DNA of 6,118 nt, from contig CP070840.1 in NCBI GenBank assembly GCA_020342025.1, positions 414,249 through 420,366 on the forward strand. Reading direction: 5' to 3'. The notes beneath the pieces were generated by a model that was given only the letters and a program-made list of their open reading frames with translations, did not search any database and was not told where the DNA came from. Positions 3,851 through 4,348 of this stretch are shown piece by piece (position 1 is the first letter of the stretch; each line of letters starts with the position of its first letter). The position numbers were made by a program, and so were the translations under genes. Origin of the DNA: Deltaproteobacteria bacterium. GTDB lineage: Bacteria > Desulfobacterota > DSM-4660 > Desulfatiglandales > HGW-15.

Positions 3851-4348
3851 ATGAAAAAGATAATTTTCCTCTCCAGAGCGGCGAAGCCGCAATTTATTAA
3901 ATTTTGGACAAATCGTCCAAAATTTTATCCAGGGTTTACGCTCATTGAAATTATGGTGGTCATTGTGATCCTTGGTATTTTGGCCACGCTGATTATTCCC
4001 AGGTTCATGGGCAGAGAGGAAGAGGCGCGGCGTACCATGGCCCGGGTCCAAATGGAGAGCTTAGAGACCGCTCTGAAGCTCTACAAGCTGGACAATGGCG
4101 TCTATCCCTCCACTGAACAGGGCCTTCAGGCCCTCGTCGAATCCCCAACAATCGGCCAACTTCCCCGCAAATGGCGGGAAGGGGGATACTTGGAAAAAAG
4201 CAAGGTCCCCACAGACCCATGGGGTAATGATTATATCTACCTCTCGCCGGGCCTTAATGGGGATTTCGACTTGATCTCATACGGGGCTGATGGAGAGCCA
4301 GGTGGAGAAGGGAACAATAAGGATATCAATAATTGGGAGTCGGAATAG
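3851..4348 (+). CDS. gspG: Type II secretion major pseudopilin GspG
   Basis: GspG is the main subunit of the T2SS pseudopilus. It is cut and N-methylated by the prepilin peptidase and assembled from the inner membrane. The 165-residue precursor has the processing site G28|F29 in PGFTLIEIM, Glu at mature position 5, a hydrophobic helix to about residue 50, MGREEEARR, LDNGVYPSTEQGLQAL, DPWGNDYIYLSPG and the C-terminal SYGADGEPGGEG calcium-site region typical of GspG. The mature part (137 residues) is normal in length. The leader is odd: 28 residues rather than the usual 5-10 or so, with residues 10-26 encoded by two DNA palindromes (see repeat at 3878-3928). It lies 70 bases after gspF and 19 before gspH. 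Confidence 0.97.
   Translation: MKKIIFLSRAAKPQFIKFWTNRPKFYPGFTLIEIMVVIVILGILATLIIPRFMGREEEARRTMARVQMESLETALKLYKLDNGVYPSTEQGLQALVESPTIGQLPRKWREGGYLEKSKVPTDPWGNDYIYLSPGLNGDFDLISYGADGEPGGEGNNKDINNWESE
3878..3928. repeat. Two adjacent palindromes inside the gspG leader codons
   Basis: First hairpin: GCGGC (3878-3882), loop GAA, GCCGC (3886-3890). Second hairpin: AAATTTTGGAC (3899-3909), loop AAATC, GTCCAAAATTT (3915-3925), an 11-bp perfect stem; two more pairs (3896-3897 with 3927-3928) follow across one mismatch. Together they cover codons 10-26 of gspG. The composition resembles dispersed GC-palindrome plus AAATTTTGGA repeats I recall from deltaproteobacterial intergenic DNA; that likeness needs a search. 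The palindromes are direct observation; insertion is inference. Confidence 0.7.

Follow-up and report, generated by a model that had tools for sequence, protein, structure and literature searches.

The type II secretion gene gspG in a 6,118-nucleotide stretch of deltaproteobacterial DNA (the window) carries an in-frame insert of 18 codons in its prepilin leader, and matching to a covariance model showed that this insert belongs to a family of two-hairpin repeats dispersed in related genomes. An origin of the insert from such a repeat is very probable. That it both originated in this way and has since been kept as a nucleic-acid structure is the favoured account, held with reasonable confidence.

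The insert in the gspG leader

On profile-model matches the window is a type II secretion operon. The inner-membrane protein gene gspF (2554..3780, +; TIGR02120) is followed by gspG, which encodes a major pseudopilin of 165 amino acids with a 28-residue leader (3851..4348, +), and by gspH-, gspI- and gspJ-like minor pseudopilin genes (4371..5999, +), for which TIGR01707 (gspI) matched above its cut-off and the gspH and gspJ models scored below theirs. The assignment of GspG in the preliminary description was confirmed by TIGR01710, which matched the entire mature protein with 184.9 bits (cut-off 88.85). The GGAG at 3836..3839 (+), within a block common to carriers of the insert only, we infer to be the likely Shine-Dalgarno sequence of gspG.

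The insert spans 54 nt (3875..3928, +) and encodes leader residues 9-26, RAAKPQFIKFWTNRPKFY. The first of its two hairpins, GCGGC-gaa-GCCGC at 3878..3890 (+), is the constant hairpin of the repeat family. Hairpin 2 (3896..3928, +) pairs 14 positions with one mismatch around a 5-nt loop, the arms being at 3896-3909 and 3915-3928, and its core is an 11-bp stem, AAATTTTGGAC-aaatc-GTCCAAAATTT, at 3899-3925. Reading 3878-3928 from the ATG at 3851 agreed with the earlier statement that the hairpins are translated as residues 10-26, and the placing of the insert end two codons ahead of the cleavage site was likewise borne out, Pro27-Gly28 intervening before the cleavage site and the following FTLIE. 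Both of the hairpins described as lying back to back were recovered, although their adjacency is only approximate, with 8 bases between hairpin 1 and the hairpin 2 core.

Folded alone, 3875-3931 gave -20.0 kcal/mol compared with a shuffled mean of -7.2, and none of 200 shuffles equalled this value; in the wider context of 3820-3960 both hairpins stayed (z -2.3, 3 of 200 shuffles equal). The hairpin 2 core occurred once in the window at up to two mismatches, compared with 0.00 expected. Chance palindromes in an unusually long leader, to which practically no weight is given, are refuted by this expectation and by the fold, together with the model match and the dispersed family described below. 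No Rfam model matched the window at gathering score. The motif TCCAG is found at both edges of the insert in the window; at the 5' edge it is not shared by relatives, so it was not counted as a target-site duplication. Between codon 1 and the cleavage site of the window gspG no ATG, GTG or TTG was found in frame, so that no ordinary internal start would yield a short leader there, in keeping with the long leader first described. The carriers G007, G011 and G013 have an ATG at codon 16 that could serve as an internal start.

A protein search scored 8000 candidates, of which the best 120 were kept, ranked by similarity to the query, and proteins were counted as carriers when the leader had at least 28 residues and at least 8 of 18 residues matched the insert consensus. 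The insert was present in 66 of the 119 homologs with a readable cleavage site among these best 120 (median leader 28), a share that is not a frequency since the set is ranked by likeness to the query. The other 53 of the 119 had a median leader of 11 residues, which upheld the earlier claim of an unusually long leader for GspG; exactly 10 residues, the commonest length, were found in 20 of the 53, and removal of the 18 codons from the window leader leaves 10. These 53 include a few partial or shifted inserts (P0016, P0027, P0055, P0061 and P0074), that of P0027 being shortened and that of P0055, judged from the protein alone, looking like the insert in a different reading frame. The sources named were Desulfobacteraceae, Desulfobacterales and Desulfatiglandaceae MAGs. 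Compared with the typical GspG of TIGR01710 the mature protein is alike, whereas the window leader has 28 residues against about 10. The accessible part of PMC4471445 gives leaders of 15-30 residues for type IVb prepilins and of at most about 18 for type IVa, with which pseudopilins are grouped, so 28 residues is long for the class. The relatives that lack the insert were found to have short leaders of unrelated sequence, which favours insertion as the preliminary description had proposed.

A dispersed family of two-hairpin repeats

A pattern scan of genome contigs returned 11 stretches, 10 of them in unrelated taxa and probably due to chance; the sole useful one (L011, Desulfobacteria bacterium Co_bin7) was a gspG with an identical kind of insert. 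The Co_bin7 genome (G001) contained 48 copies of GCGGCGAAGYCGC, and the reversed control gave 0. A wider pattern was found in 34 of 194 related genomes, and its reversed control gave one match in each of 3 of the 194. Including gspG copies, the matches numbered 75 in G001, 71 in G019, 23 in G016, 21 in G006, 20 in G007, 7 in G021, 6 in G011 and 3 in G013; the seven carrier genomes found had 3-75 each, with a reversed control of 0. The repeat core is 45-54 nt long and the consensus of the dispersed copies is about GAGCGGCGAAGCCGC-GTTAYAT-AAAATCGC-GNA-GCGATTTTAT, most aligned copies having GA or AA before GCGGC. All these copies were counted in the genomes of relatives; the window itself has one second copy. 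Viral contigs gave 0 matches and a plasmid collection distant gspG matches only. In the published literature, largely its freely accessible part, the two-hairpin repeat was not found in print, nor was anything relevant on palindromes with pseudopilins or on such repeats in sulfate reducers or Deltaproteobacteria.

Sixty-one dispersed copies from five genomes gave a gapless alignment, 6 of the 67 extracted having been omitted (four because hairpin 2 was atypical, two because the loop was one base longer). Covariation in hairpin 2 involved 7 pairs and 19 cells altered on both sides, compared with 2.8 in shuffles, and none of 500 shuffles was as high. Hairpin 1 is constant by construction, being part of the search pattern. 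The covariance model R1, built from these 61 copies of five relatives with no gspG copy among them, matched the leader insert of the window (3875-3931, +) with 33.4 bits and an E-value of 2.5e-8, which supported the initial interpretation as a repeat insertion. R1 also matched the leader copies of gspG in each of the six relatives supplied (E-values of at most 2.1e-7); its best match in 14 short-leader gspG loci had an E-value of 0.32.

The second copy in the window is located at the gspF-gspG junction (3769..3825, -; R1 35.3 bits, E 7.2e-9), and one arm of its hairpin 2 (3772-3784) includes the gspF stop codon at 3778-3780. A full junction copy was present in four of the six relatives, reverse in L042 and L044 and in sense relative to gspG in L046 and L047; that of L045 was shortened (E 9e-5) and L043 had none of note. 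In G013 the leader copy is present and the junction copy absent, the ribosome-binding site directly following the gspF stop. The last two codons and stop of gspF within the reverse arm of the window (3772-3784) are ATA AAA TAG; in G013 and G010, both without the junction copy, gspF ends ATA AGA TAA.

Variants of the repeat were observed in other genomes. In G176 and G120, two genomes outside the family, the constant hairpin GCGGCNNAGCCGC with its spacer precedes a hairpin whose sequence differs from place to place (L074, L076, L104, L108, L111, L114, L116, L119 and L120), and L098 and L099 have variable second hairpins likewise. These are perfect or near-perfect, up to about 24 bp long and start near ATAA, the structure being kept and the sequence free; L103, L115 and L117 are examples of copies there without such a hairpin. 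Many of the G001 copies L017-L041 share an extra 5' part, about ACTTGATNGTATAGGAATTTCCTTTTTT, and AACTTGA after the copy, so that in G001 the mobile unit may extend further and be bounded by direct repeats.

Few copies lie in open frames. Among 112 copies with enough flank, 15 were spanned by a mechanical open reading frame of at least 80 amino acids: one gspG (L044), four copies without hairpin 2 (L094-L097), eight spanned in antisense only and two (L140, L073) in sense without a Pfam match. The gspG leaders other than L044 fell outside this count because the start lay too close to the insert or to the end of the locus. With looser limits nine of 65 copies were placed inside open frames, and a pass with other limits over the same set gave eight. 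Among these eight, the frames of L016 and L134 extended genes upstream, beyond a ribosome-binding site located after the copy; antisense frames covered L016 again, L026, L028, L029, L082 and L141, the one over L026 forming the 5' portion of a frame that has a transporter domain; and the sense frame of L140 had no Pfam match. Among the copies examined, only the gspG copy appears convincingly coding.

Dispersed palindromes within protein genes are known from other bacteria. The accessible portions of PMC2229807 and PMC10969869 describe RPE, palindromic repeats of about 105-150 bp dispersed in frame in the protein genes of Rickettsia, where they enter many unrelated genes, and protein-coding palindromic repeats of Wolbachia are named in a reference title of a citing paper. 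The gspG insert resembles both in being a dispersed palindrome in frame within a conserved protein gene. It differs from RPE in its length of 45-54 nt, in that only the gspG copy is convincingly coding, in its location within a removed leader and in its conservation at silent sites. Like REP elements the repeat is a short dispersed palindrome, mostly intergenic, with covarying stems; unlike them it has two dissimilar hairpins in a fixed order. A mobiliser of the RAYT/IS200 type was considered and rejected: PF01797 was present in 27 of 31 genomes, and one of 20 Y1-type transposase neighbourhoods in four genomes had a copy, about 0.9 kb away and with no visible link.

Exchange of the leader block and conservation of the insert

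In all seven carrier genomes found, the insert sits at one and the same gspG codon. Fifteen family genomes were classed as non-carriers. Leaders were read directly in nine of them (G002, G004, G005, G009, G010, G017, G018, G019 and G022), G012 and G015 were assigned from alignments starting at query residue 27 and G003 from one starting at residue 17, and for G008, G014 and G020 the protein alignment search gave no clear gspG. One DNA search missed the insert-bearing G013, which makes a negative from that search weak evidence of absence. An rpoB tree covered 21 of the 22 family genomes, G014 being left out; its well-supported branches require at least four changes to account for the seven carriers, and their grouping as a single clade was rejected. 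A tree of mature gspG (16 rows, with G013, a partial gene, and five more distant rows left out) also rejected a single carrier clade (AU p 0.0007); the gspG of G004, which has one in-frame stop, was kept as is in the trees. The six carriers of a gspF tree, drawn without G001 and G011, were scattered with weaker support. A single vertical origin within the family was rejected by the rpoB and gspG trees.

The scatter of the carriers on these trees would also fit a site-seeking repeat that had landed more than once, independently, at one codon. The sequence around the insert argues otherwise. Local alignment of the 110 nt ahead of the cleavage-site Gly gave scores of 51-91 among eight carriers, compared with at most 13 between carriers and six non-carriers and a shuffled maximum of 15. 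At 0-2 mismatches the gspG-type hairpin 2 was found in gspG only in the six carrier genomes searched. The eight carriers compared share the stretch before the insert as well as this gspG-only form, which points to common descent or transfer of one allele, and makes independent landings very improbable. A source of the gspG-type hairpin 2 elsewhere in the genome was sought at up to three mismatches in eight genomes (six of the seven carriers, G018 and G019) and rejected; one further place each was found in G001 and G018, at three mismatches.

These comparisons mark the gspG insert as an allele that the carriers share, with a hairpin 2 of its own form, and not as a recent landing. Between the carrier G016 and the non-carrier G019, bins of the gspF tail are 90-98% identical and bins of mature gspG 83-96%, and the stretch between is unrelated. 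The block from the ribosome-binding site to the cleavage site occurs on two distant backbones, which shows that it has been exchanged, one allele of ribosome-binding site, start and leader having been transferred or repeatedly replaced. Short leaders also occur in shared types: G010 and G019 (L057, L053) have MLQTK.DDRG with a block score of 35, and G017 and G018 (L061, L051) MKR.GFG.DRG with a block score of 26.

The synonymous divergence of the insert was low. Over six lineage pairs it was 0.14, compared with 0.55-0.96 in 119 windows of 18 codons from mature gspG for the same pairs, and over ten pairs including G013 it was 0.276, compared with 0.49-0.86 in 143 gspF windows, so that no 18-codon window of gspG or gspF beyond the insert (at least 0.49) is as low as the insert itself (0.14-0.28), in a small test of about 11 synonymous sites per pair and five lineages. 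The insert of G013 was the least conserved, with a synonymous divergence of 0.40-0.59 to the others, which counts against the nucleic-acid reading. The four codons preceding the insert had a synonymous divergence of 0.75 and a nonsynonymous divergence of 0.32, compared with 0.276 and 0.079 in the insert, a comparison that is also small. With low silent divergence in the insert and free divergence just before it, the insert seems to be kept as DNA or RNA, and its maintenance at the nucleic-acid level is considered probable.

Many of the changes within the insert are in loops or preserve the stems: ATA..TAT became ATG..CAT in G007 and G011, and GGAC/GTCC became GGGC/GCCC in G013, two stem pairs thereby switching from A-U to G-C. 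In the eight gspG inserts 99.3% of stem cells are paired, the sole broken pair being in the window itself. Covariation among the eight is modest and only suggestive, as the score was reached by 7 of 500 shuffles, the number of doubly changed pairs by 40 of 500 and that of pair types by 322 of 500. In the insert residues of the 66 long-leader proteins, Met8 occurred with His18 in 7 and with Tyr18 in 0, and Ile8 with His18 in 5 and with Tyr18 in 41 (p 5e-6 with no correction for kinship, 13 other combinations set aside). Self-templated correction of the palindrome could yield such double changes without selection.

Instead of the nucleic acid, the extra residues might matter as peptide, a longer basic leader altering membrane targeting or handling by the prepilin peptidase. 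The window leader is positively charged (K2, K3, R9, K12, K17, R22 and K24), and the insert recurs in the 66 of 119 homologs drawn from the best 120 of 8000, a set biased towards the query. However, pN/pS over all 28 pairs was 0.43 in the insert compared with 0.06 in the first 55 mature codons, the amino acids of the insert being freer and its silent sites tighter, and the insert-like P0055 appears, from its protein only, to be read in another frame. A role as peptide is thus quite improbable.

A stronger competitor, though still unlikely, is a selfish or neutral insertion that was tolerated since the leader is cut off, its conservation resulting from a recent spread of the block by recombination. 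The exchange of the block between two distant backbones in the rpoB and gspG trees is consistent with this, as is the position of nearly all other copies examined outside convincing coding frames. Spread of the whole block would however protect the insert and the four codons before it alike, and the greater divergence of those codons within the same block disfavours neutral spread.

A possible role at the gspF-gspG boundary

In the explanation preferred here, a copy of the dispersed two-hairpin repeat would have entered the gspG leader in frame, where the 18 added residues would cost little because the leader is removed by the prepilin peptidase. The insert would then have been retained as a nucleic-acid structure and not as peptide, travelling with the ribosome-binding site and start codon as one block exchanged among related species between the gspF stop and the cleavage site. 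The hairpins may act in the mRNA at the gspF/gspG boundary by shielding or pacing the 5' end of the gspG message, and the pair of leader and junction copies would shape this boundary in favour of the major pseudopilin, which would be made in larger amounts than GspF. This mRNA mechanism is tentative and is given somewhat less than an even chance.

Intercistronic or 5' stem-loops stabilise downstream mRNA, for example in the puf, pap and mal operons. The gspG hairpins are similar in being at the boundary of two genes, beside the ribosome-binding site of the gene whose product is expected in larger amounts; they differ in being part of a dispersed family of which one copy is translated. The hairpins may tune gspG translation, as proposed in the preliminary description, and this would fit the silent-site conservation. 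Because they start 27 nt after the A of the ATG, outside the footprint usual for initiation, it is not obvious that they would affect initiation.

In-frame palindromic repeats of bacterial proteins are treated mainly as tolerated inserts, with benefit not shown, in the accessible portions of PMC2229807 and PMC10969869. The coding copy in gspG shows conservation at its silent sites and some double changes that preserve the stems, and it lies in a segment absent from the mature protein; this poses a clean question of whether an insert has been co-opted as RNA structure. The results further point to exchangeable cassettes in the form of prepilin leaders, and to a family of dispersed two-hairpin repeats in Desulfobacteria. 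A more speculative reading, which is regarded as doubtful, is that the region from the gspF stop to the cleavage site forms a mobile expression cassette of ribosome-binding site, start and translated two-hairpin RNA element that is swapped between species, the leader being a read-through site that does not burden the protein; the copies before flagellar, pilin and ribosomal-protein genes would then belong to the same undescribed RNA control family.

Among 63 dispersed copies from five genomes, 20 were in sense no more than 75 nt before a ribosome-binding site and start, 2 were antisense in such a position and 41 were neither. The sense bias of 20 in 22 (p 1.2e-4; two of the 20, L144 and L158, lie before one gene that two genomes share) suggests that part of the family serves as a 5' RNA element, and these sense copies may do for other genes what is proposed for gspG. 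The 41 copies in neither position count against the mRNA mechanism, as does the place of the gspG copy, which sits just after the start; the junction copy precedes it. By Pfam match the 20 downstream genes encode five flagellar proteins (FlgD, FlgE, FliE, FlgK and FliS), two ribosomal proteins (S20 and L7/L12), one pilin N-terminus, a ketol-acid reductoisomerase, a class I tRNA synthetase, a response regulator, a histidine kinase, BrxC/D-like, FAD, B12-binding and DUF5320 proteins and two zinc-ribbon proteins (the same gene in two genomes), with two genes without a match. The sense copies shortly before flgD-, flgE-, fliE-, flgK- and fliS-like genes are L030, L031 and L038 in G001, L127 in G006 and L153 in G007.
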